From positions 1 to 50,808 of IMG/VR virus record IMGVR_UViG_3300034137_000033: a DNA stretch of 50,808 nt; one strand, 5' to 3'. Position 1 is the first letter of the stretch, and the number at the start of each line of letters is the position of its first letter. The notes beneath the pieces were generated by a model. That model saw nothing but the letters and a program-made list of their open reading frames with translations. It had not been told where the DNA came from and made no database searches. The translations under genes and the position numbers were made by a program. This DNA is from a virus. Of the stretch, positions 2,699-50,736 are shown piece after piece.

Positions 2699-2756
2699 TT
2701 GTTTCACTGCTTGCTCATTTTGAATACTAGCTACATCAGGGGAATGAGAGAGCCCC
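2699..2756 (+). promoter_or_regulatory. Helicase promoter, mirror copy of the primase promoter
   Basis: TTGTTT (2699-2704), a 17-nt spacer and GAATAC (2722-2727) have the same geometry as the leftward primase promoter. The 18 bp at 2711-2728 are the reverse complement of 2370-2387. The leader then contains TACATC and GAGAGAGCC, as on the other side. Confidence 0.6.
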
Positions 2757-2776
2757 TAAAATTGAGGAAATACATA

Positions 2777-10723: not shown

Positions 10724-10738
10724 AGGACACGGACAGCT

Positions 10739-11455: not shown

Positions 11456-11513
11456 CCTGTATTCCACCTGGCCTTTTCCCTATACTCGCTACACTAAATA
11501 TCTGAGGTGTTAT

Positions 11514-20297: not shown

Positions 20298-20304
20298 TAT
20301 GCAA

Positions 20305-25921: not shown

Positions 25922-26134
25922 ATGTCAATTTCCCAATATGTCACGGTTGAGGCTACCAAGCTTTCGCCGCCAGTCGCAGTAATTACAGCTTCAATAAGCG
26001 GAATGTCAGTCGACGACTGGATTAAAGCCCTGACGGTTTTATATCTTGTTTGCCAAATTACATTCTCTGTACTGAAGAATAGGCGCGAAGCTAAAGAGAG
26101 CGAGGCAAAGAAGGTAGTCGGCGATGCCGAATAA
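25922..26134 (+). CDS. Holin
   Basis: This 70-aa protein has two hydrophobic segments (about residues 12-28 and 34-52) with the pattern SGMSVDDWIKALTVLYLV, followed by a charged tail (KNRREAKESEAKK). This is typical of small two-segment phage holins. It opens or depolarises the inner membrane to trigger lysis. It is first in the order holin, endolysin, Rz, Rz1, and its end overlaps the endolysin start by 11 nt. GAAAG precedes the ATG. Confidence 0.8.
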   Translation: MSISQYVTVEATKLSPPVAVITASISGMSVDDWIKALTVLYLVCQITFSVLKNRREAKESEAKKVVGDAE

Positions 26135-26588
26135 GCGTATTGCTGGATATACCCTTGCGGCGACTATTAGTATTGCCACTGCTGTTGTTGCCAGCTTTGA
26201 AGGACTTCGAACTACAGCCTATCTAGATCCAATCGGAATTCCCACTATCTGTTACGGACACACAGCTACGGCAAAGATAGGCGACAGCAAAACACCAGCC
26301 GAATGTAAAGAACAGCTTAGTAAAGATCTGCTAATCGCAATCCAGGATGTTGAGAACCGGGTGAAAGTTGACATGACTGTTGAACGTCGTGCCGCGCTTG
26401 TTTCTTTTGTATACAACGTGGGTGGTACGAAGTTTGGGAGCTCAACTCTGCTGAAGAAGCTGAATGGTGGCGACGTCCGTGGTGCCTGCGCTGAGCTGTC
26501 GAAGTGGGTGTACGCCGGGGGTGTGAAGCTCAAAGGGCTTGTTACTAGGCGCGCTGAAGAACGTGCGCTGTGTGAGATCGGGCTATGA
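26124..26588 (+). CDS. SAR-type endolysin (T4/P22-like lysozyme)
   Basis: This 154-aa muramidase begins with a weakly hydrophobic segment (residues 9-23, LAATISIATAVVA) that fits a signal-anchor-release sequence. E26, D35 and T41 form the canonical E-8-D-5-T triad (FEG, LDP, PTICYGH). Further lysozyme motifs follow (LVSFVYNVGG, LVTRRAEER). It cleaves peptidoglycan after release from the membrane. Its stop overlaps the Rz start (ATGA). Confidence 0.92.
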   Translation: MPNKRIAGYTLAATISIATAVVASFEGLRTTAYLDPIGIPTICYGHTATAKIGDSKTPAECKEQLSKDLLIAIQDVENRVKVDMTVERRAALVSFVYNVGGTKFGSSTLLKKLNGGDVRGACAELSKWVYAGGVKLKGLVTRRAEERALCEIGL

Positions 26589-27043
26589 ACAAGTACCTGC
26601 TGATCGCTCTGTTCGCCATGGCGGCGCTTGTAAGTTGCCTCGTTCTGAAGCATGAGCGTGATGGGCTTATTGGCAGCCTAGAGGCGTCGAACGCTCGCGT
26701 GGCGCAGCTGGAATCCGATGCTACGTCTGCCGCCCTGGCACTTCAAGCTCGTGATGCCTTGGACAAAAAACAATACGAAGAGATGACCAATGCAAAAAAC
26801 GAAAATGAAGGCCTTCGCGCTCAGCTCTCTGCTGGCACTAAGCGGCTGCTCGTCCGCGCCAATTGTCCAAAGCAGCTGCCAACCGTTGCCGGAACCACCA
26901 GCGTGGATGATGGAGCAGAACCAGCGCTTACAGCCGTTGCTGGACAGGATTATCTACGTCTCAGAGAGCAAATAATCGTTACTGAGGCGCAGCTCGCGGG
27001 GCTTAGGGAATACATCCGTCAGGTCGTCCAGGTGGTGAAATGA
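26585..27043 (+). CDS. Rz inner-membrane spanin subunit
   Basis: This 152-aa protein has a single N-terminal membrane segment (LLIALFAMAALVSCLVL) followed by a long alpha-helical periplasmic region rich in A, E, Q and R, as in i-spanins. With Rz1 it fuses inner and outer membranes in the last lysis step. The nested Rz1 reading frame confirms the call. It overlaps both neighbours by 4 nt. Confidence 0.85.
   Translation: MNKYLLIALFAMAALVSCLVLKHERDGLIGSLEASNARVAQLESDATSAALALQARDALDKKQYEEMTNAKNENEGLRAQLSAGTKRLLVRANCPKQLPTVAGTTSVDDGAEPALTAVAGQDYLRLREQIIVTEAQLAGLREYIRQVVQVVK
26790..26975 (+). CDS. Rz1 outer-membrane lipoprotein spanin
   Basis: This 61-aa protein is nested in the +1 frame of Rz. 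It has a basic start (MQKTKMK), a short hydrophobic stretch and the lipobox LALSGC. Lipidation at the cysteine would leave a small proline-containing mature protein (PLPEPPAW). The ATG at 26790 has GAAGAG in front of it; an internal ATG at 26805 lacks such a site. Confidence 0.85.
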   Translation: MQKTKMKAFALSSLLALSGCSSAPIVQSSCQPLPEPPAWMMEQNQRLQPLLDRIIYVSESK

Positions 27044-27996
27044 TGGCAAGCCTGGCAGACAAGACAATCAAGCATCAGATCGCTCTCAGGGGGCAGTTCA
27101 CTCGCGTTGCGAAACAAGCTGCGCTGCATCTCCAGGCACTCAAAGTGGCCATCAAGGCCGAGCTCGACGAAGCCATGACAGCCCGCAACTGGAGCGCTGT
27201 AGCACGTCTCAGGAAGACTTTCGTCACTATCGACAAGCTCATTGCTGACGAGTACGCGCTGATGTCTGAGACGCTCAAGGCGGAGCTTGGCGACCTGTTC
27301 GTGTACGAGTCCGAATTCACAACCAAGCTTCTTGGCTTCGACTTCAGCAACAGTCTGGTCACCGAAAAGCTGGTTGAGAGCATCGTAAGCAGCGACCCGT
27401 TTGACGGCAAAATTCTCGGGGAGTGGCTCGACGAGCAGAAGCTTGCGACACAGATCAAAGTGAAGCAGACGATCCGGCTTGGGGTGCTCAACGGGTTGTC
27501 TACGTCGAAGATCGTGGATGCGTTGTATGCAGAGCCCGGCAATCCTTTCCTGGGTGCGAAGAGGAACGCCGAGGTGATGGTTCGTACAGCATCAGCTCAT
27601 GTCACCTCGCAGGCCTCCCTGAAGACTTTTGAGCGTGTTGGTTTTGGTTCGTATCAGCTGAGTGCTGTGCTCGACTCACGTACCACGCCTGTGTGCCGTG
27701 CCCTAGACGGCAAGATCTACAAGACCTCGGATAAGGCCAGGAAAGTGCCGCCATTTCACCCAGGCTGTCGCACAGTGATGATCGCTGTCGGTGAAGATGA
27801 TCCAGCATTTACTGATGGGTACGAAGACTGGTTGGGCAAGCAGAGTGCCGGCGAGCAAGAGGCGATCCTTGGGCCTGCGAGGTACAGGCTATGGAAGTCA
27901 GGCCAGCCACTGGAAAGCTTCGTGGATCTCGATACCCATCACGTGATCCCGCTTGACCAGCTGAGATCAAAAGAAGTTTTTCTGAATCAAGGATGA
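27040..27996 (+). CDS. Mu gpF / SPP1 gp7-like minor head protein
   Basis: This 318-aa protein has a helical N-terminal part. Its C-terminal motif is AVLDSRTTPVCRALDGKIY, then PPFHPGCRT, the conserved cysteine- and histidine-bearing core of the Phage_Mu_F family. Members are internal or portal-associated head proteins needed for DNA packaging or ejection. The family is usually beside the portal, but here it lies behind the lysis genes. Two ATGs (27040, 27043) are possible. The last codons overlap the start of a duplicated noncoding element. Confidence 0.85.
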   Translation: MMASLADKTIKHQIALRGQFTRVAKQAALHLQALKVAIKAELDEAMTARNWSAVARLRKTFVTIDKLIADEYALMSETLKAELGDLFVYESEFTTKLLGFDFSNSLVTEKLVESIVSSDPFDGKILGEWLDEQKLATQIKVKQTIRLGVLNGLSTSKIVDALYAEPGNPFLGAKRNAEVMVRTASAHVTSQASLKTFERVGFGSYQLSAVLDSRTTPVCRALDGKIYKTSDKARKVPPFHPGCRTVMIAVGEDDPAFTDGYEDWLGKQSAGEQEAILGPARYRLWKSGQPLESFVDLDTHHVIPLDQLRSKEVFLNQG

Positions 27997-28981: not shown

Positions 28982-29424
28982 ATATCTCCGATCACCTAGA
29001 ACTAATTAAAATCCAACTGGAAGCTTTGCCGTCAAAACCAACCATCAAATTCTTCTCCGGCGAGCTCGAAGTAGACGACCTGAAGAATCTCAAGCTTGAT
29101 GGCAAACGCCCGTACATCCTTCTCTCCTGCGGGGGAGGCAACGTCCCGGACAAGAACTCCAGGGTGAAACTAGAGCTCGACGCAATGTTCGGAGCCTGGG
29201 TTATCGGCAAGATAGATCCAACCACCCACGGAATGTCATCTATCGCTGCTGACACCGCAGTAGAGATTGCAAAGATTATTGAGGGCTTCCGTGGCGACCC
29301 CAAAACAAATACGAAGATCCCCGTGTTACAATTAATCAAAGAAGCATTTAATGGCGTCACTGACGGCAAGTCAGACTTTAGCGCTTGGTCAGTTATCTGG
29401 TCGCAACGAATCGTGCTCGTTTGA
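28978..29424 (+). CDS. Tail terminator-like protein (DUF1834/Mu gp37-like)
   Basis: This 148-aa mixed alpha/beta protein has ILLSCGGGNVPDKN in the middle and ends WSVIWSQRIVLV. Its position after the gpG-like gene and before the tube gene matches Mu gp37/DUF1834 proteins, which cap the tail tube. It overlaps the previous gene by ATGA. Family similarity is moderate; the position carries much of the call. Confidence 0.62.
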   Translation: MNISDHLELIKIQLEALPSKPTIKFFSGELEVDDLKNLKLDGKRPYILLSCGGGNVPDKNSRVKLELDAMFGAWVIGKIDPTTHGMSSIAADTAVEIAKIIEGFRGDPKTNTKIPVLQLIKEAFNGVTDGKSDFSAWSVIWSQRIVLV

Positions 29425-29431
29425 GCTCAAA
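29418..29431. promoter_or_regulatory. Palindrome CGTTTGAGCTCAAA, copy 1
   Basis: A 14-bp stretch containing the 12-bp palindrome TTTGAGCTCAAA, identical to 32307-32320. Both lie shortly upstream of an AATAATAAG leader. Possible operator; chance repetition is not excluded. Confidence 0.3.
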
Positions 29432-29443
29432 ACAAATACCAAC

Positions 29444-29458
29444 AATAATAAGAATAGG
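29444..29458 (+). promoter_or_regulatory. AATAATAAGAATAGG leader of the tail tube gene
   Basis: A repeated leader ending in AGG, 7 nt before the ATG at 29466. No TACAAT-like box is obvious in front. Confidence 0.5.
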
Positions 29459-29465
29459 TAAATAT

Positions 29466-30242
29466 ATGTCTTACGGATTTAACTCACCGGACAATACCAT
29501 CGGCTGGATCGGTAACAGCGGTGCAATGATCGAGCGGCTCGACTCAAACGACCAGCCAGTCAGTGGTGCCATGTATGTTGGCCAAGCGTCTTCAGCATCA
29601 CTTGCTCTTAGCTCTGACAAGGTTGAGATGATGGATATGACCTACGGTACGCTTGGTGTTGCACAGTCCAAGGTGATCAAGAACACCGCTGAGCTGACCA
29701 TGAACCTCAAGTCGTTCAATCCAGACGTGCTAGCGCTCGTTATGTACGGCGACGTCTACAAGGACGTTGCGGTGCCAGGTGCCACCGCTTCAATTAAGGC
29801 GTTTAAGGAGTCCAATGCTATTGTCCCTGGGATCATCTCCTTACTGACCAGCGTAACCATCAAGGGAGAGGCTGAGCCACTGACTGAAGGTCAAGACTAC
29901 GTTATCTCTAACGGCTCTCTCTATTTCCCAAAAACCTCGGCAATCCAAGATGGTGATATTGTTGATGTCGTTTACGAAAAAGCCGCTGTGCGCAGGATCG
30001 AGGGCTTCACCAACACCGGTGTGAACGTGCGTATTACCTTCGACGGTATCAACCTGGCAAATGATGATGCCCCGGTGAAAGTGGTTTACCACAAAGTCTC
30101 GCTGTCTCCTGCAGCCCAGCGTCAGCTGTTGTCTTCGGATTACGCGGATCAGGAAATCAAAGGCACCTTGCTTGTATCCAAAGCAGTTACAGGCGCTGGA
30201 CGCTCCAAGCTGTTCGTTGAAGAGCATGTAACTGCAGCCTGA
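29466..30242 (+). CDS. Major tail tube protein
   Basis: This 258-aa beta-rich protein starts SYGFNSPDNTIGWIGNSG and has repeated strand-loop patterns (VEMMDMTYGTLGV, AELTMNLKSFNPDVL, VRITFDGINLANDD). These are typical of long-tail tube proteins with a central Ig-like or beta insertion. It lies between connector genes and tail chaperone genes and is followed by a strong terminator, as for a highly expressed structural gene. The ATG at 29466 is chosen by the leader and AGG. Confidence 0.75.
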   Translation: MSYGFNSPDNTIGWIGNSGAMIERLDSNDQPVSGAMYVGQASSASLALSSDKVEMMDMTYGTLGVAQSKVIKNTAELTMNLKSFNPDVLALVMYGDVYKDVAVPGATASIKAFKESNAIVPGIISLLTSVTIKGEAEPLTEGQDYVISNGSLYFPKTSAIQDGDIVDVVYEKAAVRRIEGFTNTGVNVRITFDGINLANDDAPVKVVYHKVSLSPAAQRQLLSSDYADQEIKGTLLVSKAVTGAGRSKLFVEEHVTAA

Positions 30243-33116: not shown

Positions 33117-35891
33117 ATGTCTAGTAATGCAGTAATTAACTTAATCCTCAAGGCTAAGGACGAAGCATCTAGCGTATTAAAAAGCACAGCAGCCAAGGTG
33201 ACAGCCCTGGTGACTGCGTTTGCCGGTGCTGTCGCGATTAAGGAAACCGTCCAGAGTCTGACCGAGCTTGATTTCGCAGCAAGGCGGCTTGGCGTCTCGA
33301 TGGAAGACCTGACGGCAGCTCAATACGCTGCATTCAGCGGAGCGAACGTTAATCCCGATCAGTTTCTGGACGCCCTAGATGAAGTTCGTATAAAGGTTGA
33401 AGAATTCAGCTCCATAGGTTCTGGTGGTGCCGTCGACTTTTTTGAAGTCCTGAATATATCTGCCGAGAAGTTCAACAAGCTAAATCCATTGCAGCAGTTG
33501 GACAAAATATCTGAAACGATCAAAGGGATGTCTGATAACTCAGCTTTCACTTTCCTCGATCAAATCGGATCTGACTCCCTGCGCAACCTGCTTCCAATTC
33601 TGCGTAATGGTGGAGCTGAGTTCAAAAGGCTTCGCGCCGAGGCTGAGCGTCTAAACCTGACCCTATCTGATGTCGACACGATTTCAGTCGCCCAACTTGG
33701 TAAATCCTTTTCGCAGCTCGAAAAAGTGGGTAGTACGGCTTTCAGCAAAATCGTCGCAGATATCGCTCCTGAGCTGACAGCTCTGACAGAGATGGTGACT
33801 GAAGCCATTGTTGGCATATCGAAAGACACGAAGGCTCCAGTTAAAGATATAGGGCAGACATTCCTTGATGTTTTTTCTGGTGTTGTCGCAAGCCTGAATT
33901 TTACTGTCCAGGTTAAAAATGCGTTCGTTGTCGCCTACAGCGCTATGAAAGAAGTTGTCTTGTCTTTCGCTACGTTCAACCTCAAGCAATTCCAGTTCCT
34001 CGACTCGATCTATACAAAAAGTGCCAACGGTCTCGTCAATATCTTTAGGGCGGCATTCGCAAAGAATCTGGAGTTCCTCAACTCCACATTCATTGAGCCG
34101 ATGAAGCAGTTCGCCAACACGTTCAACCTCGATGCAGCTGCCGGTCAGATCTCGAAATTCCAGGGTGTTCTTTCCGGGCTCCAGGAATCGTCAAGCAAAC
34201 CCATCCAAGTTGCGACAGAAAACAAAAGCATTGGCGAGACTATCAAGCAGCTTCAGGTTCTTAAAGACGAAGCGCATAAGTCTGGGCTAGAGAATTTCAA
34301 GATTTGGAATGATGGTGACTACCAGAAGCAAACCGAAGAAACGATGGCGAAAATCAAGACGAAGGTTCTTGAGAATGAAGACAAAACAAATGCTGAGTTA
34401 GCGAGACGAAAGGACAAGTCCGACCAGGATAAAATCGTAAAACTTCAAACCAAAAACGCCGCCGCATCAGCTCAAATCGCCGCAACACAAGCTCAGCTTC
34501 AAGCCGATCTCGCCAAGAAAGAGATCGACATCACCATCGCGAAGATCGACACGAAAAAACAGGTGGAACTGTCCGGCCTGCAGGAGCGTGTGCGTCTCGA
34601 AAACCTCTCGGCAGTCCAGATCGCTGATGAAAAATTTCGAATCGAAATGGAGGCTGCGAAGAAGCTCAGCGAGCAAAAAAAGAGATCCCTGGAAGTCGAT
34701 ATTATGGCCCTGCAGGGCAGCCTCGCGGGTCAACAAAAGCTTCTTGGCGCGACACAGAACCTGAACGACCGCCCAGGCATTCTCGCAACAATCAATCAAC
34801 TCGAAGCCGACATCACATCGAAGCGCGCAGACCAGGCAACCATCGGCGCAGAGCTCGTCAACCAATCCGCTTTGCTCAAAGCCGACCGTGCCGCAGAGGT
34901 TGGCCTGATCAGACAACAATTGGCTCAGATCAAGGCTGACGCGCAGATCGAGCTACTGGCCATCGGCGGCGACCAGTTCAGCGCTGACATCAAAAAGATC
35001 GAGGCTGACTTCAAGGACAGCATTAAAAACATGGAAAGCCTCGGGGAAGACTCGACGGCGATCCAGAAGCTCATCAGCGCGAAAAAAGCTCAAGCAGAGA
35101 TGCAGGAGATCGAGCGCCAGTACGCCAGTTTGAAGTCAAAGCTGGAGAAGCATCAGATCTCGCCACTCGACTACCTCGATCAAGCCAACAAGTTGGAAGA
35201 GCGCGGTACGAAGGCTGCTGAAGTCACTGGCAACCCCGCAGACCTGGACAAGGTGAAGAAGTCCGCCCAGGACGCTCGCGCCGAAGTTTTCGACCTGCAG
35301 ACGCTGACTGACAACGTGTCGAGCAGCCTGCAAGGTGGTCTGGAGGGTCTCTTCACGGACTTCATCTCAGGTACGAAATCGGCGAAAGAGGCGTTCGCTG
35401 ACTTTGCGCAGGGCGTGCTGAGTGAAGTCGCGAAGATCATTGCAAAGCTTCTCATCCAGCTTGCTATTCAGTCGATGCTTTCAGCCTATACGGGTGGTGC
35501 CAGTGGCGGTGCTGGTAGCCTAATGGGCATGGTCGGAGCTGGTGTAAAGCATGGAGGCGGCATGATTGGAGATTCTGGCCGCTCGCGGAATGTTCCATGG
35601 GGCGTCTTCGCGGATGCCCCGGAGTTCCACACTGGCGGAATCATCGGGCTCAAGCCTAACGACATCCCAATTATTGCCGAGCGTGGAGAAGAAATGTTAA
35701 CCGCTACCGATCCACGTCATCGCAATAATATAGGCAAGGGAAACAAAGGTCAGTCTGATCAAGCACCACGAGTTACTGTTAATAACATGATCGACTCAAT
35801 GTCTATCGCTAATGTTATGGAAGGTAGTCACGGCTCAGCGGCAATTATGAATGTGATTCGTGCGAACAGAAGTGAGATTAAAAACATGTGA
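33117..35891 (+). CDS. Tail tape measure protein
   Basis: This 924-aa protein is the longest in the window. It starts INLILKAKDEASSVLKSTA and has long helical coiled-coil stretches (notably residues ~430-720). Hydrophobic segments near the C-terminus (IIAKLLIQLAIQSMLSAY) are followed by a GGASGGAGS-rich part. These fit lambda H-like tape measures, whose length sets tail length. At about 0.15 nm per residue the tail would be roughly 140 nm. A segment PRVTVNNMIDSM closes the protein. Confidence 0.9.
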   Translation: MSSNAVINLILKAKDEASSVLKSTAAKVTALVTAFAGAVAIKETVQSLTELDFAARRLGVSMEDLTAAQYAAFSGANVNPDQFLDALDEVRIKVEEFSSIGSGGAVDFFEVLNISAEKFNKLNPLQQLDKISETIKGMSDNSAFTFLDQIGSDSLRNLLPILRNGGAEFKRLRAEAERLNLTLSDVDTISVAQLGKSFSQLEKVGSTAFSKIVADIAPELTALTEMVTEAIVGISKDTKAPVKDIGQTFLDVFSGVVASLNFTVQVKNAFVVAYSAMKEVVLSFATFNLKQFQFLDSIYTKSANGLVNIFRAAFAKNLEFLNSTFIEPMKQFANTFNLDAAAGQISKFQGVLSGLQESSSKPIQVATENKSIGETIKQLQVLKDEAHKSGLENFKIWNDGDYQKQTEETMAKIKTKVLENEDKTNAELARRKDKSDQDKIVKLQTKNAAASAQIAATQAQLQADLAKKEIDITIAKIDTKKQVELSGLQERVRLENLSAVQIADEKFRIEMEAAKKLSEQKKRSLEVDIMALQGSLAGQQKLLGATQNLNDRPGILATINQLEADITSKRADQATIGAELVNQSALLKADRAAEVGLIRQQLAQIKADAQIELLAIGGDQFSADIKKIEADFKDSIKNMESLGEDSTAIQKLISAKKAQAEMQEIERQYASLKSKLEKHQISPLDYLDQANKLEERGTKAAEVTGNPADLDKVKKSAQDARAEVFDLQTLTDNVSSSLQGGLEGLFTDFISGTKSAKEAFADFAQGVLSEVAKIIAKLLIQLAIQSMLSAYTGGASGGAGSLMGMVGAGVKHGGGMIGDSGRSRNVPWGVFADAPEFHTGGIIGLKPNDIPIIAERGEEMLTATDPRHRNNIGKGNKGQSDQAPRVTVNNMIDSMSIANVMEGSHGSAAIMNVIRANRSEIKNM

Positions 35892-36799: not shown

Positions 36800-37737
36800 A
36801 GCACTACTCATCTCGCTACACATCAGCCGATGATCTGGTTGCTGTCATCAAACAACGTCTTGAAATCGAGGGCTGGACTGTGAACCGGTACGGCGGGTTT
36901 GATGATCCGCGAATCGGCATCCAGTTGATGATCTCTCGCGGGGATGCGTTCTTTTGCCTTCGCAGCTTCGGAGAGTCGAGCCCGTACGTTGATTACTACT
37001 CCGCAAGCTCCATTGGACAGCATGGGGTGATCGTCTCTGCTGCAAGCGGCTACAGCAACAGTGCGGGCTTCATCAACCAGCCAGGCTTCCAGTCTTCGCC
37101 TAAGTGCTGCGTTGAGTCTGGGGAAGCCGCTGGGGTGTGCCATTTCTTTATCTCGGACGACCTGGTGATGTTCGTGACTGAGCGTGCCGGAGGTCTGTAT
37201 TCGTGCCTGTCGTTCGGCATGTTGCCGGTGTTATCCCCTGGCTCGGGCGGTCAGTTTGTGACGTCCACAGAGAGCTACCTTAGCAGCCAAAAACAACCAA
37301 TCTTCGCAAACGCATACGCGACGTTCGGCGTTCGTCTTGCTCACTCGGAATGGGCAGGCTGGGACGTTGGGGGGCGGACGTGGGGGCCGCTGAGGCCGAT
37401 TAGCCAGGGTGCTCTGATTGGCGTTCCGCATTTTCATCAGAACGGGACTGAGTACGGGAATGTCGGTGCTGTCGCTCGCGCTAAAGGCCTTGCGGGTGGT
37501 CTTGATGGCCTTGTCCCCATCACGCTGTTTACCGAGTTCGGTGGTGGATTTGCTCCATATGCCGAGCTACCTGAAATTTTCCTGGTGCCACTGGATTCGT
37601 TTGAGCCGGGTGCAGTGTACGAGCTCGGCCCGCATAAATTCATGGTCTTCCCGCAATACGTTAAATCGTTCCCTGTAGACAGGGATTACCCGCACTTCAA
37701 CCTGGGCATTGCAGTGCTGTTGGAGCCCGACGTATGA
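36796..37737 (+). CDS. Minor tail protein, probable paralogue of the preceding one
   Basis: This 313-aa protein starts with a helix ending in GWTVNRYGGFDDPRIGIQL and continues as a beta-rich chain with many G and aromatics, like its upstream neighbour. It overlaps both neighbours by ATGA, so the three genes 35927-39248 form one translational chain. Position indicates a distal tail role. Confidence 0.62.
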   Translation: MKHYSSRYTSADDLVAVIKQRLEIEGWTVNRYGGFDDPRIGIQLMISRGDAFFCLRSFGESSPYVDYYSASSIGQHGVIVSAASGYSNSAGFINQPGFQSSPKCCVESGEAAGVCHFFISDDLVMFVTERAGGLYSCLSFGMLPVLSPGSGGQFVTSTESYLSSQKQPIFANAYATFGVRLAHSEWAGWDVGGRTWGPLRPISQGALIGVPHFHQNGTEYGNVGAVARAKGLAGGLDGLVPITLFTEFGGGFAPYAELPEIFLVPLDSFEPGAVYELGPHKFMVFPQYVKSFPVDRDYPHFNLGIAVLLEPDV

Positions 37738-39248
37738 ACCAGATTGCAAAAAGCTTCGGCACGTTCTTCTTCAACAACGGTTTCCTGACCCCCGAGAGAA
37801 TCGATGCGGGAGTGGTTGTGCCTGGTGCAGAATTTTCGTTCGAGCTCTGGCATTCTTTCGTCGATCAGAAGGTATTAGCTGGTGTTACTCAAACCGGGGC
37901 ATTCGGGGTTGAGCTCAATGGTGCTACCTCGGGGGCTTTGTACGCATTTACCTCCTGTGCCTACGGCGTTTCTCTGAGCCAAGCAAATGGGCTTATCGAC
38001 TACACGGCAGCTTTCGACTTCAGAACCGGGTCTGCATACAGCTTCAACCTGACCGGTTCAATGGCACTCGTAATGCCCGAACGCATCGACTGGTCGACTC
38101 AGCCAGAGATGAGCATTCAGTACCTGACCGAGGTCATCGAGTCCTTTGATGGCACTGAGCAACGCATTGCTCTGCGTGACACACCACGATGCTCGCTTAG
38201 CTACCTGTACAGCATGACTGATGAGCAGCAGTACCGGTTTGATAACAAGATAGCTACGTCGACAGGTAGCATGATTGTGCCGCTGTGGCCGCTGCAGTGT
38301 CAGCTGTCACGTGCAGTGCAGCCTGGGGACACATCCGTTGTTTTGGAGGCGATCAACGCGCACGTGAGAACTTCCGACACGCTCCTGATTTCCGAGGGTG
38401 ATGAGTGTGAAGTGGTAAGCATCGAGTCCGTGGCCGGGGCAGTGGTGACCTTAAAACACCTGGCTAAGAAAACCTTCTCCACCAACGCGGTAGTTCTCCC
38501 AGCCCGAATCGCGTACCCAGCCGATGAGTCGAACTCCACATCGCTCCTGCGCGGCTTCGATCAGCATTCGATCACCTACGATTTGGACGAAACGCAGATC
38601 CGCAAGCCAATCCCGGTAGACGACTTCGAGTACCTCCATGGAAGGCCAATCCTCCCGTTTCGCCCAGACCGCTCGAAGGATGTTACGACGCAATACAATC
38701 GCCTGCGCGAAACGCTCGACCCTTTGATCGGAGCACGCAGCATCTACGACCGAGCCAGGGGGACGGTGAAAGTCCTTGGGCAAACCTTCACATTTTTCAG
38801 TGAAGCCGAACGCCAAAGATTCGAGGACTTCGCAGAACTCATGACCGGCGCACAGGGTGAGTTTTACATTGAGGGCCCCGGTCAAGCTTTCGAGCTCAGC
38901 GAAGACATTGTCGTAACAACATACAAAATCAGAATAAAAAATAGTGGATACACTAACTTCGCTAACAGCAACTCGCTCGCCCCAATAGCGGCAATAAAGC
39001 TGTATGATGGAACTACTATTTACAGAACAATCCTGAGCGTCACTGGCAACCCAGACGGCACAGAAACAATCACCACAAAAGAAATAACAGTCAGCCTCAA
39101 GACAACTGACATTGAAGCAATCGTACCGCTTTATCTTGCAAGATTTGACTCAGATGAATTTCGCTACATCTTCGACACCAGCGAAGTGTCGACTATAACT
39201 AAAAATATAAGACAACTACTCTATGCTGACTCTGCAATCGATACATAA
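37734..39248 (+). CDS. Distal tail protein
   Basis: This 504-aa protein has a beta-rich N-terminal half (MNQIAKSFGTFFFNNGFLTP) and a middle with TLLISEGDECEVVSIESVAG. The C-terminal half has helices (DVTTQYNRLRETLDPLIGA) and DUF-like tail folds (FTFFSEAERQRFEDFAELM). Its place before the BR0599-like gene matches tail assembly genes of Pseudomonas siphoviruses. The exact family is not certain. It overlaps the next gene by 26 nt. Confidence 0.6.
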   Translation: MNQIAKSFGTFFFNNGFLTPERIDAGVVVPGAEFSFELWHSFVDQKVLAGVTQTGAFGVELNGATSGALYAFTSCAYGVSLSQANGLIDYTAAFDFRTGSAYSFNLTGSMALVMPERIDWSTQPEMSIQYLTEVIESFDGTEQRIALRDTPRCSLSYLYSMTDEQQYRFDNKIATSTGSMIVPLWPLQCQLSRAVQPGDTSVVLEAINAHVRTSDTLLISEGDECEVVSIESVAGAVVTLKHLAKKTFSTNAVVLPARIAYPADESNSTSLLRGFDQHSITYDLDETQIRKPIPVDDFEYLHGRPILPFRPDRSKDVTTQYNRLRETLDPLIGARSIYDRARGTVKVLGQTFTFFSEAERQRFEDFAELMTGAQGEFYIEGPGQAFELSEDIVVTTYKIRIKNSGYTNFANSNSLAPIAAIKLYDGTTIYRTILSVTGNPDGTETITTKEITVSLKTTDIEAIVPLYLARFDSDEFRYIFDTSEVSTITKNIRQLLYADSAIDT

Positions 39249-40023
39249 AGCGCTATCTTTGTCCCGTCCAATTGAGCTATTTCTTTTTGAGCACGGAACG
39301 GAGAAGTATGCTTACACCAGTGGTAGCAGGCAGCACTTGCACACGGATGGCCTGATCTACAAGCCACTGAGCCTCAAGCGCGGCAAAGTCCAACGAACAG
39401 CCGAAGACTACAAGAACCAGCTGACCTTGGACATGCCGGGCGACTCACCAGTACCACTGCTGTTCCGATCACATTTGCCGTCAAACCACGTGACCATCAA
39501 GGTTTTCCAAACGCAGCGAGACCTACCCGGTGAGTCGATCAACGTCTTCGCCGGAGAAGTCACGAGTGTAACCTGGAACAACTCCATCGCGTCCTTGGCC
39601 TGCAATCCTGTCTCCAGATCCCTCACACGCCAAGTGCTTCGCTGCGGCTACCAAAGTCAGTGTAATCACCACCTCTACGACAGCAGGTGCGGCCTTCAAA
39701 TCCAGGATTGGCAAGAAGACACCAAGGTAACGGCCATCAAAGACAACGGATTCACCGTGGAAGTAGCCAGCAAGCAAAACGAAGACGACTACTACATCAC
39801 AGGCTTGTTATCAAAGAATGGAAGTGACTTCCGCATGATCACATCCTGTTCCGGTAATGTATTTAAGCTTATGTCTCCGATTGATGGGCTCAAGGTAGGC
39901 GATGCTATTCAAGTCGCTAAAGGGTGCGATCACTCTGCGGCTGCGTGTCACGCATTTGATAACTTCGATAACTTTTTGGGATTCTTAACGATCCCTACTG
40001 ATAACCCGTTTCAAGTTTACTAA
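39223..40023 (+). CDS. BR0599/DUF2163-like tail-tip protein with cysteine cluster
   Basis: This 266-aa protein ends with CDHSAAACHAFDNFDNFLGF and contains an internal LRCGYQSQCNHHLYDSRC. These cysteines fit the BR0599/DUF2163 family, related to lambda gpL and to gene-transfer-agent tail proteins, some of which bind an iron-sulfur cluster. It probably joins the tube end to the tip hub. It overlaps the upstream gene by 26 nt, and a leader motif follows its stop. Confidence 0.8.
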   Translation: MLTLQSIHKALSLSRPIELFLFEHGTEKYAYTSGSRQHLHTDGLIYKPLSLKRGKVQRTAEDYKNQLTLDMPGDSPVPLLFRSHLPSNHVTIKVFQTQRDLPGESINVFAGEVTSVTWNNSIASLACNPVSRSLTRQVLRCGYQSQCNHHLYDSRCGLQIQDWQEDTKVTAIKDNGFTVEVASKQNEDDYYITGLLSKNGSDFRMITSCSGNVFKLMSPIDGLKVGDAIQVAKGCDHSAAACHAFDNFDNFLGFLTIPTDNPFQVY

Positions 40024-40029
40024 CCACTT

Positions 40030-40040
40030 AATAATAAGAA
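40030..40040 (+). promoter_or_regulatory. AATAATAAGAA leader of the tail hub gene
   Basis: A repeated leader motif followed by TAAAAGGG, which supplies the ribosome-binding site for 40055. No -10 box in front. Confidence 0.5.
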
Positions 40041-40054
40041 TAAAAGGGTTTCCG

Positions 40055-42421
40055 ATGGTTTACTTCATGATTGCCTTGACGGTTCTGTCTATGTACTTGT
40101 CAATCAAGATGCAGAAGAAGCCTGAAAAGCCGACTGCGGCGGGGCTTGAGGACTTCAGCTTTCCAACTGCAGCAGAGCGACCAATTCCTGTCTTCGTGGG
40201 GACTAGGCGTATATCTGGGCCCAATGTGCTGTGGTACGGCGATCTTCTCACCAGAGCAATCAAGACAGTCACGAAGAGTATGTTTAGCTCCAAAAAAACG
40301 GTCACGGGATACCGCTACTACATGGGTGTCCAGCTCGGAATATGCCACGGCCCGGATGTCCAGCTCCGTGAGATCAAGTTCGGTGACGACGTGGCGTGGT
40401 CTGGACTAAGCACTGGTGGCCCGATCCAGATCGACAAGCCTGCTCTCTTCGGTGGTGACACGAACGGTTCTGGTGGAATCTCCGGAACGATGAGGTTTTA
40501 TCCAGGTGCTCTGACCCAAGCCCCAAACGAGTATTTGGTCAGCAAGGTTGGTTCAGATCTCGTGTCTGCGATACGTGGTGTCAGCTACTGCGTCATGGAA
40601 GGCATGTACATCGGGAACTCATCGAGCCCGCAAGCCACAAGCTTCGTCGTCAGCAGGTTCCCCAAATCACCAGACGACCGCTTCAGCGATTACGAGCAGA
40701 TCGGCCTTGACGCAAACCCCGCATTTTTCATATACGAGATGATCACTCACGGCCTTTACGGTGCTGATCTCGGCTATTCGTCTATTGACCTGGATTCGTT
40801 CACTTCCGCCGCTAAAACCCTTTTTGATGAAGGGCTAGGCATATCAGCAGTCATTGACTCATCAACGACCGCTGGTGACGTGATCAATGACGTCAAACGC
40901 GTGATCCAGGGCTCATTGCAAACAGATCCTGCAACCGGCGCACTGAAGCTCAGGCTGATCAGAAACGACTACATCGTCGACGAGCTGCCATTGCTCGATC
41001 AGTCGAACATCAAGAATCTCTCCGGGTTCACACGCGGCTCTCTCGACACAGCAATCACCGAGGTGAAGCTCAAGTACACAAGCATCGACGACGACTTCAC
41101 AGAGCGTACAGTGATCGCACAGAACAACGCCTTGCGAATGCACAAAGGGGATAGCGACGGACAGGTCGTCCAGATGCCCATGATCAGCACCCGCGAAACG
41201 GCAGCGAAGATCGTGATGAGGGAAATGGCCAGCGCATCGGTTCCTTTGGCAACCTGTACCGCCGAGTGCAATCGCGGCCCCGCACACACCGAAGTCGGTG
41301 ACGTCGTTCGCCTGAGCTGGCCAGCCGAAGGCGTCGACAAATTAGTCATGCGCGTGACCGGCATCGACCTTGGCGCTCCTCAGGATGGTTCTGTGCGCCT
41401 GACCCTCGTCCAAGATGTCTTCGGTGTCTTCATGAGCGTCTACGCCGATGGCTCCGAGCGTCAGTGGACGAAACCCACCTTCAAGGCTACTGACATCACT
41501 CGCTTCGACATCATTGATGCACCGACCATTTTGACGACAAGCCAAACAACCGGGAGCGTGCTTGTCGTTGCGGAAAATCCTGGCGTTGCGTTGGACTACC
41601 AGCTTCAGGTGAAGGGTGGTGTCGATAGCGGCTACATTGATGCTGGAGCGATGCCTTTCACGCCGTTTTTCTCGACTACGAAAGCCATGGGTACTGGCTG
41701 GACTGATGTGAGCGTCGTGCTTTCAGGGGCATCTGCAGAGTTGTCGTCGATCACGGCTGATGAGGTTCGTCAGGGGCTTGGCTTGATGCTGATCGTCAGT
41801 GCCCTTGGGAAAGAATGGATCTCGTATCAGAACGCTGTGGCTGGCAATTCAACGACTGTAAATCTTGGTCTGGTCAACCGTGGGCTATTCAACACGAAGC
41901 CTTTGGCGCACCCAGCAGGAGCTCGCGCATGGGCTGTTTCCGAGGGTTTCGGGGTTACTGACTGGCAGTATGCGAAGAGTGAGTCTGTGTCGCTCAGGAT
42001 GCTTCCGAGGACTCAGACCGGGGTGCTCGATGTCGATGATGCTGTCGTTCATTCGTATAGCGTTGCAGGGGCGAACCTGGCTCCTTGGGCACCAGGGCGT
42101 GTGCGTGTGAATGGCGTCGAAGGTGGTCAGATCTCGGGTGTTGCAACTGTGACCTGGAGGAAGCGTGATGGATCATTGCCTACTGTGATGTTCTACGGTG
42201 ACGACGAAAGCCGGGTGAGTGATGCGGCGTACCAGGTGGTTGTGAAATCAGGGAGTACGGTCGTCAAAACTGTCAGTGGGATTACTGGCGAATCGTGGTC
42301 GTTTACTGATGAGATGGCGCTGAATGGCGGGGCTTACTACAGCAGCCTGGCTTTCGAGATCAGTGCTCAAAAGCCAGGGTTTACGGATTCAGTCGCCGCT
42401 AGGGTAAGCGTGACCCGGTGA
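40055..42421 (+). CDS. Tail tip / central hub protein (gpJ-like)
   Basis: This 788-aa protein begins with a short hydrophobic segment (MVYFMIALTVLSMYLSI), then PTAAERPIPVFVGTRRISGPNVLWYGDL, a start typical of tail tip hub proteins of the lambda J/Phage-tail_3 type. The C-terminal ~250 residues contain fibronectin-III-like strands (PTILTTSQTTGSVLVV, PWAPGRVRVNGVEGG). It would form the tail tip and contact the host. It is the last gene of the rightward tail block and is convergent, 2 nt apart, with the leftward membrane-protein operon. Confidence 0.8.
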   Translation: MVYFMIALTVLSMYLSIKMQKKPEKPTAAGLEDFSFPTAAERPIPVFVGTRRISGPNVLWYGDLLTRAIKTVTKSMFSSKKTVTGYRYYMGVQLGICHGPDVQLREIKFGDDVAWSGLSTGGPIQIDKPALFGGDTNGSGGISGTMRFYPGALTQAPNEYLVSKVGSDLVSAIRGVSYCVMEGMYIGNSSSPQATSFVVSRFPKSPDDRFSDYEQIGLDANPAFFIYEMITHGLYGADLGYSSIDLDSFTSAAKTLFDEGLGISAVIDSSTTAGDVINDVKRVIQGSLQTDPATGALKLRLIRNDYIVDELPLLDQSNIKNLSGFTRGSLDTAITEVKLKYTSIDDDFTERTVIAQNNALRMHKGDSDGQVVQMPMISTRETAAKIVMREMASASVPLATCTAECNRGPAHTEVGDVVRLSWPAEGVDKLVMRVTGIDLGAPQDGSVRLTLVQDVFGVFMSVYADGSERQWTKPTFKATDITRFDIIDAPTILTTSQTTGSVLVVAENPGVALDYQLQVKGGVDSGYIDAGAMPFTPFFSTTKAMGTGWTDVSVVLSGASAELSSITADEVRQGLGLMLIVSALGKEWISYQNAVAGNSTTVNLGLVNRGLFNTKPLAHPAGARAWAVSEGFGVTDWQYAKSESVSLRMLPRTQTGVLDVDDAVVHSYSVAGANLAPWAPGRVRVNGVEGGQISGVATVTWRKRDGSLPTVMFYGDDESRVSDAAYQVVVKSGSTVVKTVSGITGESWSFTDEMALNGGAYYSSLAFEISAQKPGFTDSVAARVSVTR

Positions 42422-46563: not shown

Positions 46564-47024
46564 AAATTGTTGTGGACTGCGAATTCACACAGCTCAATGC
46601 TACCGCCAGGCTCATCTCTATGGCGCTGGTTGCTGAAGACGGTCAAGAGCTCTACTTCGAGCTTAGCGATAATTGCGTCCTAGCTGACTGCAGTGATTTC
46701 GTTGTTGAGAGGGTGTTGCCACAGCTAACTGGAAGTAGCGCCTCAATTTCACTGGACGCTGCAAGGCAGGAATTGTTGGCGTTCCTGGGTCGCTTCGATA
46801 ATGCCGAAATCATGTCTGACGCGCCCGCATGGGACTGGGAGTTCTTCTGTGATATCGCTTACCACAACGGAAAATGGCCGATTAATGTATCCAATAGACC
46901 ACTCAATTTGATTGACATATTCAATGATAAAGACGTGCCGGGTGAAGATGCGCCCGAGCTTCCGCATCATGCGTTGCTCGACGCCAGATTACTAATGAAC
47001 TACTACAAGCGCCTTCTCAAATAG
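46560..47024 (+). CDS. DEDDh exoribonuclease-like protein (Rv2179c-type)
   Basis: This 154-aa protein begins IVVDCEFTQ (D and E of motif I), has IMSDAPAWDWEFFCDI (motif II region) and ends PHHALLDARLL (H and D of motif III). This is the compact arrangement of Rv2179c-like 3'-5' exoribonucleases. It would trim RNA or DNA 3' ends. It is the second DEDDh protein of the prophage. Its last 8 nt overlap the convergent relaxase gene. Confidence 0.75.
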   Translation: MKIVVDCEFTQLNATARLISMALVAEDGQELYFELSDNCVLADCSDFVVERVLPQLTGSSASISLDAARQELLAFLGRFDNAEIMSDAPAWDWEFFCDIAYHNGKWPINVSNRPLNLIDIFNDKDVPGEDAPELPHHALLDARLLMNYYKRLLK

Positions 47025-48171
47025 CTAGCTCTAGTTCGTCGGGAATATTTAATTGCTGTCCAGGTACATACTCAATGTACTTTCGCTTGAGCCTGCACTC
47101 CTGAGGCTTGAATAGCGCGTCAAATATAGCATCGATGAGCTCCAGAATTTCCTTGATCATCTTTTGAACTTCGTAATCCCTTGCTGTGAACTTGATATAG
47201 ATTGGCTTTCTTCTGCGCCCGCTGACTGCGATGAATTCATAGTAGTAGATTCTAGCTCTTTCTTGGTCTTCGCTATCTCTTCTTGCAATTTCATTCTGAA
47301 GTTCACGAATGGTTTCGGGGTCATAATGTATTCCTTCCTGTGTAGTTAGTTTGTGCCAAGTCAATCTTGAGCGCTTGAGCTGTCTACCACTTATATGTTT
47401 GCCGTCAAACTCGAAACTGATCCCCTTTGGCTGGCCTTCATCATTGAGCGTGAGGTTGATGTAGACCTTCTGCTTTCTCAGGGCTCTTACGAAGTCGAAC
47501 ATGTCGCCCTGGGTTGCGTTTGTGGCTTCGATAGCACCCGCGATCTTCGCAATCATTTTGTGCTTCAGGGGCAAGTCGTTGTCGCGGACTGAAGCTTGGA
47601 GTTCAGCATGGGTGATCGAGACGCCCCAGGTGTCTTTCGGCCTTGGTGCTTTGGTGAGTCCGAAGCGGTCTTCGATCTCAGACACTGAGTCCATGCTGAC
47701 GCTTCGCTCATTACTATCTTTGACCATTGAGAACGTGTCATCGAGACGGATGCGGTTTGCGACGATGTGAACGTGCTGATGATCTTTGTCTTGATGCATT
47801 ACGGCGACGTACTGAGTCGTTTCGTCGAAGCCTAGGTCTGTCATGTACTTTGTGACCGCCTGACGCCATTGCGGGGTTGTCAGGGACTCTCCGGGGCGCA
47901 GGGACAGCATTGCGTGGAAGACCGGTTTAATGGCCTTCTCAGAGTCGATGGCGAAGCGCCTGAGCGTCTCAACCTGGTCGAATTCGCGGATCATCTCCGA
48001 AAGGTCTGACTCGTTGCCCTGCAGGACGCCTGGCAGTGGGTCTTTGCTCATAGTGTTGAAGCTGATCGTCCGGATGCCAGAGATCTCATGGTCGTGCTTC
48101 GTGCAGCCGAAAATGTAGCGGATTCGGTTTTTGAAAGAGCCTGAGGACTTCGGGAAAATCTTGCCGATCAT
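47017..48171 (-). CDS. Mobilization relaxase (MobA/VirD2-like, PF03432)
   Basis: This 384-aa protein has the relaxase histidine signature HQDKDHQHVHIVANRI, with H131, H133 and H135 as likely metal ligands, and a candidate catalytic tyrosine Y19 (NRIRYIFG). The C-terminal part is basic. Relaxases nick one strand at oriT and lead it to a recipient cell during conjugation. It lies directly after mobC with an ATGA overlap. No coupling protein or mating channel is present, so transfer would need a helper. A relaxase in a complete phage genome is rare. No frameshift or truncation is visible. Confidence 0.88.
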   Translation of the reverse strand: MIGKIFPKSSGSFKNRIRYIFGCTKHDHEISGIRTISFNTMSKDPLPGVLQGNESDLSEMIREFDQVETLRRFAIDSEKAIKPVFHAMLSLRPGESLTTPQWRQAVTKYMTDLGFDETTQYVAVMHQDKDHQHVHIVANRIRLDDTFSMVKDSNERSVSMDSVSEIEDRFGLTKAPRPKDTWGVSITHAELQASVRDNDLPLKHKMIAKIAGAIEATNATQGDMFDFVRALRKQKVYINLTLNDEGQPKGISFEFDGKHISGRQLKRSRLTWHKLTTQEGIHYDPETIRELQNEIARRDSEDQERARIYYYEFIAVSGRRRKPIYIKFTARDYEVQKMIKEILELIDAIFDALFKPQECRLKRKYIEYVPGQQLNIPDELELAI

Positions 48172-48461
48172 TTGACACCCCCCAGGTTCACTTGGGCGAT
48201 GTACTTAACTTTTTCCAGGAGCTCACTGCCGGGCCGGTCGGCGTTTATCATAGATGCGAGATTCATGAGCTCCCTGGCAATCTGAACAACGTCTTGGCTG
48301 ACCTTGGGCTTCACCTGACCGTTAGCAACGAAGTCTCTGATAAACGCGCCTGCGGACTTGTAGCCTGCTTCGGCGATCTTGGCATTCAATGTGTCGAGCT
48401 CAGTCTTATTGAGCCTTAGGGTAATGCGGGATTCTTTGTTTTGCTTCTCAATAGTTTTCAT
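48168..48461 (-). CDS. mobC: MobC-like relaxosome accessory protein
   Basis: This 97-aa basic protein has a ribbon-helix-helix-like start (ESRITLRLNKTELDTLNAKI) and AGYKSAGAFIRDFV. The C-terminus has QIARELMNLASMINADRPG, as in MobC accessory proteins. MobC helps the relaxase to bind and melt oriT. It heads the leftward mob operon, and its start is preceded by AAAAGG and an AATAAAAATAATAA leader. Confidence 0.82.
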   Translation of the reverse strand: MKTIEKQNKESRITLRLNKTELDTLNAKIAEAGYKSAGAFIRDFVANGQVKPKVSQDVVQIARELMNLASMINADRPGSELLEKVKYIAQVNLGGVK

Positions 48462-48476
48462 CTTGGGTCACCTTTT

Positions 48477-48490
48477 ATTATTTTTATTCT
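48477..48490 (-). promoter_or_regulatory. AATAAAAATAATAA leader of mobC
   Basis: Read leftward, AATAAAAATAATAA merges into AAAAGG, the ribosome-binding site of mobC. A variant of the repeated leader. Confidence 0.4.
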
Positions 48491-48527
48491 GAGCCCTCAA
48501 CGCAACACCCGAAGGGATGTGAGTATC

Positions 48528-48562
48528 TAGCCTTACTTGTCTGACATAGACACAACTGGCTA
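48528..48562. repeat. Stepped inverted repeat upstream of mobC
   Basis: TAGCC, five bases, TGTCT, five bases, AGACA, five bases, GGCTA. Both pairs of arms are perfect and concentric over 35 bp. It may be the MobC or relaxase binding site at oriT, or an operator of the mob operon. Confidence 0.5.
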
Positions 48563-48614
48563 AAAAGAAGCTCTAGACTCATTATGCAAATGGAGCTTTA
48601 GGTGGTTCTAGTGC

Positions 48615-48657
48615 TTTTGCTAATTATTTTGATTTATTTGTTTGTATAACTAAACTT
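48615..48657. other. AT-rich stretch beside the iterons
   Basis: About 43 bp, mostly A and T, adjoining the first iteron. Iteron origins commonly have such an AT-rich melting region on one side. Confidence 0.5.
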
Positions 48658-48819
48658 TCGCAAGGTGTGAATGCGAAATCGCAGCATGGGAGTGCGAAAT
48701 CACAAAGCACTAAAGCGAATTCGCACTCATGCACTGCGATAATCACAAGGCATGACTGTGGTTTCGCTATGACTGTGTGTGAATTCGCAAGTGCATGGTG
48801 TGAAATTGAGTAAGAGTTA
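48651..48819. repeat. Eight iterons with 21-22-bp period
   Basis: Copies of a motif close to TGYGAAWTCGCA start at 48651, 48672, 48693, 48714, 48735, 48757, 48778 and 48799, with steps of 21, 21, 21, 21, 22, 21 and 21. The first and sixth are degenerate in the 5' part (TTTCGC retained). Most have GCATG or similar in the second half. Two helical turns per repeat places all copies on one face of the DNA, as in iteron origins and partition sites. The last copy reaches the integrase stop codon. The periodicity is read directly; function is inferred. Confidence 0.75.
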
Positions 48820-50196
48820 CAGACTAACTTCTTTGGTATCGAGCATCTTGGTGTCGAGGTCAGCCAGGGTGGAAAGAAGACCTCGGCACACAAAGTCTTT
48901 TTCGAGGCCAGCACTGTTCAGAATCTCAGTTTCAATCTTCGTAGCTGCATCACGGATCTCTGAGAGATACGCCATTTTGTAGCCATCGGTCACGTCAACA
49001 GTCTGTCCAGCCGAATCATGGTTGCAGAGCACCTTGATGTAAAACGCACCAACACCGGCCCGCTCAGCGACTGACATGAAGCTGGCCCGCATGATTTTGC
49101 GTGGAAGATGCTGATTGATCCTGTCAGAAATCCTGCCGAGGAAGTCCCGGACATTCGACTCACTGACCTTATCCTGCTGCACTCCTGGGAAAACATAGTC
49201 ACCGGAAGAGTGCTTCATCGAGTACATCAGCTGGCAGTAAGCAGCATCGCTCAGAACAAGATGGAACTCCTTGCCGTTTTTCAGGGTGTCTTCTTCATTT
49301 GTCTTGTTGCGTTCTGGGAAAACCACCGCACGAGTTTTATGGCAGATATAGCTTCGCCGGATCTTGTTGATCTCTCCAGGCCTAACTCCCGTGAAGAGCA
49401 TAAACAAAATCGCTGCCGAGACCGGCTTGAACGATGTAGGTACATCACGAAGCGGAGGGGTCTCGGAGATTTCTACACACCCCTTAATGAACTGACCCAG
49501 ATCCTTTGGGTTGATCCGAATCTTATCGCGCTTGGTGGTATGCCATTGCTTAGTGTGTTTCATAATATCGACAGGGTTGTACTTGTAAATCGGCTCACCG
49601 ATCTCGTTTTTATACCAGACAATCGAAAACGAAAAGATACCCCGAAGGAGGCACAAGGCTTTATTAGCAGATCGCTCCCTTGGTGGGGTAACTCGTCCAT
49701 TTGGTCTTACAGCAGGTACGGTTGTCTCGTCATGGAGGTTCACAACGTCATCACTGGTAAAGCTTGAGATAGCCCTTGGGCCGTACTTCGCCTTGATGTA
49801 GTTGTTATAAGTTCGGTTGTAGTCATCAACCGTAGTCTTGGTCAGCTTCTTGCTCTTACGTCGCATGAAGTTTTCGAATGCCATGTCCAAGGTAAGGCTG
49901 TCCCGGAGAGACTTCGTTTCCTCAGCCTGCAGGATCTCATCAAGGTTCGCGTAGATCTTCTCTGCTTGCGCTCTAATCAATGGCAGTTTGGTAGTTTTGG
50001 GATTAAAAGCCTCAAGCTTGCGGCGGTGATCTTTCCCCAATACCTTCCTGACAACATAGAAGGCCTTGCCTCCAGCCTTAGTTACACGTAATACCAAGCC
50101 TTTAGTTTCAGTGTCATAGGCGAGCATATCAGCCTTACCCTCAGGGCAAACGAGTGCCTCCAGGGAAGCTTTGGTGAAGTGAATTTTCAAAGCCAC
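48817..50196 (-). CDS. int: Tyrosine integrase
   Basis: This 459-aa protein has an N-terminal arm-binding-like part (residues 1-95), a core-binding domain (~100-215) and a catalytic domain. R272 lies in FTGVRPGEI, a KIMR at 367-370 replaces the usual HxxR box, and H393 (CNHDS) and the nucleophile Y406 (TDGY) follow. The KxxR variant is unusual but all other catalytic positions are present. It integrates the phage at tRNA-Leu(UAA). The start is GTG at 50196 preceded by AAGGAT. It is divergent from the phage tRNA-Leu and adjacent to attR. Confidence 0.92.
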   Translation of the reverse strand: MALKIHFTKASLEALVCPEGKADMLAYDTETKGLVLRVTKAGGKAFYVVRKVLGKDHRRKLEAFNPKTTKLPLIRAQAEKIYANLDEILQAEETKSLRDSLTLDMAFENFMRRKSKKLTKTTVDDYNRTYNNYIKAKYGPRAISSFTSDDVVNLHDETTVPAVRPNGRVTPPRERSANKALCLLRGIFSFSIVWYKNEIGEPIYKYNPVDIMKHTKQWHTTKRDKIRINPKDLGQFIKGCVEISETPPLRDVPTSFKPVSAAILFMLFTGVRPGEINKIRRSYICHKTRAVVFPERNKTNEEDTLKNGKEFHLVLSDAAYCQLMYSMKHSSGDYVFPGVQQDKVSESNVRDFLGRISDRINQHLPRKIMRASFMSVAERAGVGAFYIKVLCNHDSAGQTVDVTDGYKMAYLSEIRDAATKIETEILNSAGLEKDFVCRGLLSTLADLDTKMLDTKEVSL

Positions 50197-50269: not shown

Positions 50270-50354
50270 GCCTCGATGGTGAAATTGGTAGACACATCGC
50301 ACTTAAAATGCGCCGCCGAAAGGTGTACCGGTTCGACTCCGGTTCGAGGCACCA
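50270..50354 (+). tRNA. Phage-borne tRNA-Leu(UAA)
   Basis: A complete 85-nt leucine tRNA. The acceptor is GCCTCGA/TCGAGGC with discriminator A and an encoded CCA. It has a D arm like that of the host gene, the loop CTTAAAA with anticodon UAA, a variable arm and a T arm with GGTTCGACTCC. The anticodon stem has one mismatched end pair. It differs from the reconstructed host tRNA in acceptor, anticodon stem and variable arm, so it is not a recent copy. It can supply the tRNA-Leu(UAA) that the integration destroys. Confidence 0.95.
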
Positions 50355-50681: not shown

Positions 50682-50690
50682 GACTTAAAA
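50682..50690 (+). other. attR core (GACTTAAAA)
   Basis: Nine bases identical to 119-127. The phage sequence ends here and the host tRNA 3' half begins. Confidence 0.85.
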
Positions 50691-50736
50691 TCCCTCGTTC
50701 TAGGACGTGCCGGTTCGACCCCGGCTCGGGGCACCA
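50682..50736 (+). pseudogene. 3' half of host tRNA-Leu(UAA)
   Basis: It contains the 3' strand of the anticodon stem (TCCCT), a variable arm, the T arm GGTTCGACCCC and acceptor TCGGGGC plus ACCA. It completes the fragment at 89-127. It has no tRNA 5' half in front and no visible promoter, so it should be silent while the phage is integrated. Confidence 0.93.

Follow-up and report, generated by a model that had tools for sequence, protein, structure and literature searches.

The prophage described here probably represents a lineage of temperate Pseudomonas siphophages that stably carries an IME module (oriT, a NikA/MobC-like protein and a MOBP relaxase located beside int), on a chassis that is common to defence islands. 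It is an att-bounded siphoprophage of 50.56 kb found in the window (the whole stretch of 50,808 nucleotides that was analyzed), and its phage genes, mob genes and integrase gene all lie inside the att sites (Table 1). A reading of the sequence alone had proposed that the element may spread both by virions and by mobilization with a helper; this proposal is supported by the presence of a mob operon, an oriT-like site and virion genes in one att-bounded element. Phages and elements mobilized by conjugation are customarily assigned to different classes of transmission. In the present case, a relaxase-oriT module has been retained in the core of one deep phage lineage, and it passes between phages and defence islands. 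This provides a testable route from phage to mobilizable island or the reverse, as well as for the spread of defence systems, and a prophage could move in this way without killing its host.

Organization and boundaries of the prophage

The gene content of the element is that of a siphovirus: genes for packaging, head, long tail (tape measure) and lysis were all recognized by PHROG and Pfam and their frames are open. The sequence-only reading had described these sets as complete, which applies to gene content. Connectors are also found among the open-frame virion genes, together with a T7-type holin match and a tail-chaperone match (PHROG/Pfam). No lysogeny repressor was identified among the window proteins, for which only an S24 peptidase/UmuD-like protein was recognized. 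Pfam and PHROG scans of the same proteins detected no coupling-protein or T4SS family, and the element therefore has its own relaxase and predicted oriT without recognized transfer apparatus, as expected for an IME. A phage satellite is devoid of its own virion genes and depends on a helper phage; this element carries its own. No close isolate phage was found in the searched collection, in which similarity reached 26% for the major capsid protein (the best match listed), about 26% for a tail protein and at most 37% for MobA.

The prophage interrupts a host tRNA-Leu gene, whose 5′ half ends at position 127 and whose 3′ half begins at about 50682; GACTTAAAA is present at each junction. A split tRNA-Leu was also found at both ends of the relatives G007 and G002 (the latter a Pseudomonas genome contig with an element of about 52 kb) and at the left end of G008. 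As in IMEs, an integrase (Int) is thus associated with att boundaries, here the tRNA-Leu att halves; phage-plasmids are maintained extrachromosomally, whereas this element is integrated between tRNA-Leu halves in the window, in G007 and in G002. The host tRNA-Leu is broken in its anticodon region, and a complete tRNA-Leu(UAA) is supplied about 330 bp inside the right end of the prophage. The copy of this element-borne tRNA in G002 is labeled Leu(taa) and that of the window is labeled Phe(aaa) by ARAGORN.

Other genes of the prophage encode a CoiA-like nuclease (10697-11455), an MvaT-type silencer (11487-11885) and a UmuDC-like pair (12717-14418); MvaT-like genes are also present in relatives and in several islands. 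A AATAATAAGAATAGG-like motif, perhaps a phage translation or promoter signal, is repeated closely upstream of several phage genes (at 5958, 9334, 18910, 28925, 29441, 32358, 35899 and 40021).

Table 1. Features of the prophage and of its integration site, with positions in the window.
Feature	Position	Strand	Evidence or remark
Host tRNA-Leu, 5′ half	85-127		left end of prophage
attL core GACTTAAAA	119..127	.	direct repeat with 50682-50690
Primase/SSB-like replication protein	1024..2322	-	phrog_34715; homologues in G205 (phage) and G222 (BREX island)
Origin-binding-type replication helicase	2699..5056	+	PHROG replication and origin-binding matches
Terminase small subunit	6523..7032	+	phrog_4102
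Terminase large subunit	7784..9310	+	phrog_979, phrog_2
Portal protein	9380..10690	+	phrog_145
Head scaffold	19372..20172	+	phrog_206
Major capsid protein	20299..21468	+	phrog_283
Endolysin	26124..26588	+	phrog_7
Rz-like spanin	26585..27043	+	phrog_13
Head morphogenesis protein	27040..27996	+	phrog_241; probe for phage lineage scans
Major tail protein	29385..30242	+	phrog_807
Tape measure protein (siphovirus-type tail)	33117..35891	+	phrog_2335, phrog_2854
Tail assembly, tail tip and fibre genes	37734..42421	+	phrog_1082, phrog_778, phrog_1101
mobA, MOBP-type relaxase, 384 aa	47017..48171	-	PF03432, E 6.8e-24
mobC, NikA-like accessory protein, 97 aa	48168..48461	-	PF21983, 6.3e-9
Predicted oriT	48500..48563	+	ACGCAACACCCGAAGGGATGTGAG...TTGTCTGACATAGACACAACTGGCTAA; conserved in phages and islands
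TGCGAAATCGCA-like palindromic sites, array, ~21-bp spacing	48656..48805	.	between oriT and int
Tyrosine integrase	48817..50196	-	PF00589, phrog_1; 75% identical in phage-less island G003
Complete element-borne tRNA-Leu(UAA)	50270..50354	+	ARAGORN (as Phe/aaa), Rfam tRNA
attR: core GACTTAAAA and host tRNA-Leu 3′ half	50682..50736	.	

Relaxase, accessory protein and predicted oriT

The intact relaxase motif and the MobC adjacent to int that had been noticed from the sequence were recovered by domain searches, motif inspection and coordinates. The HxDxxHxHxH motif of MobA reads MHQDKDHQHVH, and the three metal-ligand histidines typical of MOBP relaxases (H126, H133 and H135) are invariant in the MobA family alignment. 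An N-terminal tyrosine, Tyr19 (RYIFG), is conserved in all MobA rows of this alignment and is the candidate catalytic residue. The reading frames of mobA and mobC overlap by 4 bp (ATGA), which agrees with the proposed translational coupling of the two genes and is consistent with it. Median dN/dS of MobA is 0.085 for pairs of phages, 0.12 for pairs of islands and 0.10 for phage-island pairs, which indicates that the relaxase is under purifying selection.

A sequence search of MobA against PDB gave no relevant match, and only the fold search returned one: the top Foldseek match of the AlphaFold model (pLDDT 79) is the relaxase domain of R1162 MobA, 2ns6 (probability 1.00, E 4.4e-3, TMq 0.27). 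This best structural match is supportive but not strong alone, as the window MobA shares 12% identity with R1162 MobA and the whole-chain TM-score is low. MobA shares no more than about 28-30% identity with the nearest plasmid relaxases, so that no known helper can be assigned to the element.

The spacer between mobC and int (355 bp) contains an inverted repeat, TGTCTGACATAGACA, at 48538-48552, with ACAACTGGCTA after it; another block that could form a hairpin, ACACCCGAAGGGATGT, lies before it at 48504-48519. TGTCTGACATAGACA is the inverted repeat for which a role as oriT had been suggested, within a segment (48462-48650) proposed for the detection of relaxase nicking. The hairpin (TGTCT-GACAT-AGACA) is followed by CAACTGGCTA, which resembles the nic core of ColE1, CTGGCTTA (PMC5703827); the predicted nic core of the window, CTGGCTAA, is identical to it at seven of eight bases, and the nic position is predicted inside CTGG/CTA, at 48556-48562. 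An oriT-like site (inverted repeat and predicted nic) that could be cognate to the MOBP relaxase is thus located beside the mob genes. Across phages and islands, the segment carrying hairpin and nic (48537-48566) is the best-conserved intergenic stretch, with a mean majority of 0.91-0.93 compared to 0.52-0.85 elsewhere, and the conserved hairpin with ACAACTGGCTA is separated from mobC, on its upstream side, by about 80-90 bp. Of 399 Pseudomonas genomes, 10 contain the pattern TGTCTNNCANAGACACAACTGGC, every time by mobC and without any orphan, and its reversed control gave no match in the same 399 genomes; its association with mobC is more than chance. Furthermore, MobA was found in all 12 IMG/VR records that bear the oriT pattern and had not been tested before. 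Plasmids searched by BLAST contained no meaningful match to the 76-bp predicted oriT, and no known plasmid oriT can therefore be assigned to this site.

An outer stem around the hairpin (TAGCC/GGCTA) was initially considered as part of the site and dropped, since it is not conserved in relatives. The TGCGAAATCGCA-like palindromes adjoin oriT in most relatives, even those with a different integrase family, and their half-sites are rearranged in G205 and G222. A deeper MobA clade (G227b, G392 and G340; L149, L152 and L153), about 40% identical, retains the oriT layout with other hairpin arms (GTCGG/CCGAC), which suggests a second specificity group.

Prevalence of the module in the phage lineage

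To avoid selecting on the relaxase, IMG/VR was scanned with an alignment of the head morphogenesis protein, the lineage being delimited at 43% or more. It comprises 26 IMG/VR records: 18 carry MobA and eight end before the mob position, their truncation being judged by where the tail-fibre gene lies or by which gene is the last of the record. MobA is thus present wherever the mob position is covered, in 18 of 18 independent records of the lineage. The same head protein revealed three phages in the genomes of 399 Pseudomonas species, all three with MobA. As one of them (G261) and an IMG/VR record (G429) have identical spacing and apparently correspond to one element, the module is carried by about 21 distinct phage records, window included. 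In the roughly 20 others, which have the same arrangement, the head gene has diverged to 43-50% and the integrase families differ. Relatives of MobA at 65-94% occur in Pseudomonas genomes and IMG/VR proviruses, with conservation of phage gene order and mob position, and six further, more distant phages show complete synteny at 40-60% identity.

The search for mobA-mobC beside int in other prophages, which the sequence-only reading had advised, therefore shows that the module recurs. That reading would have been contradicted by a decaying insertion limited to one genome; the recurrence in all the IMG/VR records of the lineage that reach the locus, the purifying selection and a MobA intact throughout show the opposite. 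Chance or decay of the module was rejected on the basis of intact ORFs and of a dN/dS of about 0.1.

Two provirus records, G018 (L247) and G431 (L246), have p45077 as their common last gene and stop about 2 kb before the expected mob-int block, as if provirus trimming had removed this block. Provirus calling may thus be affected for such elements.

Defence islands sharing the module

Elements devoid of virion genes also carry oriT-mobC-mobA, with MobA 55-90% identical and the catalytic residues of the relaxase retained; this carriage by defence islands was absent from the expectations of the sequence-only reading. They include G386, an island of a complete genome with Thoeris, Hachiman and RnlAB genes, G003, which carries an ABC-three-component (ABC-3C) system and the integrase type of the window at the same tRNA-Leu, and G222, which carries BREX genes. 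On the MobA tree, rows from phages and islands interleave, with seven changes of label, of which at least five changes of the phage label are forced by well-supported branches. Furthermore, each of three integrase families has a phage member and an island member, namely the window and G003 (tRNA-Leu type, 75%), G020 and G386 (76%), and G205 and G222 (86%).

The closest comparison is that of the phage G205 (L140-L142) and the BREX island G222 (C1:1742214-1787341, L143-L145), which have a chassis in common. It consists of mobC, mobA, a series of around twelve small genes, the two replication proteins and int, with identities of 64-96%, most of them 75-96%: 80% for mobA, 86% for int, 84% for the replication proteins and mostly 75-96% for the small genes. 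The G222 gene set includes a Herpes_ori_bp match, and the BREX genes of this island occupy the place of the virion genes of G205. Exact 13-bp direct repeats were not found at the ends of G205, G222 or G386. A near-repeat in G222 (1742214/1787324, 16 of 18 positions) weakly suggests a dusA-side att. The unit common to G386 and G003 is mainly oriT-mobC-mobA, with a few MvaT, phosphatase or exonuclease-like genes, and these two islands have no homologues of the phage replication genes. Pfam scans revealed no terminase, capsid or packaging-redirection gene in the islands.

Siphoprophages and defence islands could even be interchangeable states of one Pseudomonas element family, in which a chassis (integrase, sometimes replication genes, and oriT-mobC-mobA) bears either a virion or a defence cassette and can travel both as virions and through the conjugation machinery of a helper; we propose this tentatively, as a possibility of almost even standing. 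If true, one chassis spreads phages and immunity against phages.

As the module belongs to the core gene set of the phage lineage, and since canonical relaxases start rolling-circle-like replication during transfer (PMC5704250), the relaxase could alternatively have been co-opted for the phage life cycle, the nick at oriT starting rolling-circle replication or concatemer formation and not transfer. This is unlikely, because the phage itself encodes primase/helicase-type replication proteins and because the module is intact in islands that have no virion genes, two of which (G386 and G003) are also devoid of phage replication homologues. This retention suggests that the module is selected for a role outside the lytic cycle, or at least not for a lytic role alone. 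The virion-less islands could also be phage satellites packaged by this lineage, the shared int, mob genes and oriT then reflecting exchange between satellite and helper and not conjugation. Many genomic islands do prove to be phage satellites (PMC11389934), and G222 has int, replication genes and small genes in common with G205; nevertheless, we consider this rather unlikely given that G386 and G003 share mainly oriT-mobC-mobA, that no packaging-type genes were detected in the islands by Pfam and that islands keep the relaxase catalytic residues. Finally, int and mob genes are adjacent at one prophage end as in IMEs, which are frequently in tandem with other elements (PMC5704250), but an IME inserted beside this one prophage or captured by it, as a separate tandem element, was rejected as very improbable since the att halves are at the outer ends only, no second integrase was found and the arrangement is repeated in about 20 other distinct phage records with different integrase families.

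Comparison with known elements

The stable IME module that we propose for this phage lineage resembles that of ColE1-type (MOBP/MOBHEN) plasmids by its HxDxxHxHxH relaxase, by a small MobC-like gene directly upstream and by a predicted oriT located upstream of mobC with an inverted repeat and CTGGCT in its predicted nic core (PMC5703827). It differs from them by its location in an integrated siphoprophage with an integrase, by its nic core and by the low identity of its relaxase to plasmid ones. Like IMEs, the element has a tyrosine integrase at a tRNA, a relaxase, an accessory protein and oriT, and no recognized transfer apparatus, but it also has a siphovirus virion and lysis gene set; G386, G003 and G222 fit the description of IMEs, with defence cargo.

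In the open-access journal literature that was searched, only partial precedents of phage-encoded relaxases were found, the nearest being P1-like phage-plasmids and a streptococcal prophage. Two P1-like phage-plasmids have mob or oriT (PMC10879196) and are therefore also phage genomes bearing a relaxase or oriT. However, mob or oriT is a rare acquisition in P1-like elements, mostly in derivatives that no longer have the phage route, whereas the module belongs here to the core of a lineage of integrative siphophages whose virion genes are present. Phi1207.3, a prophage of about 52 kb from Streptococcus pyogenes, has been reported to transfer by a conjugation-like process, the mechanism of which was stated as unresolved and without mention of a relaxase in the paper (PMC4260502); it is similar by this conjugation-like movement but belongs to an unrelated host. 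The parts (MOBP relaxase, IME module and siphophage) were thus already known, and what appears new is that a deep phage lineage combines them stably and has this combination in common with defence islands.

Proposed transfer route

According to the route that we propose, Int would excise and circularize the prophage, MobC and MobA would assemble on oriT, and Tyr19 of MobA would nick inside ACAACTGG/CTA. The strand would then be carried to the recipient by the coupling protein and T4SS of a helper element. Since the hairpin is on the 5′ side, the predicted direction of transfer is such that int would enter the recipient early and mobC-mobA last, after which Int could re-integrate the transferred DNA at tRNA-Leu. 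The DNA would therefore have two possible exits, the virion or, without lysis, the conjugation machinery of the helper. With defence cargo in place of the virion genes, the chassis could survive as an island that is still mobilizable and carries defence. Only two of the 10 host genomes examined contain a coupling protein of the PF02534 (VirD4-type) family, in a search confined to PF02534; a helper would therefore usually have to be a transient arrival or to encode another coupling-protein family.
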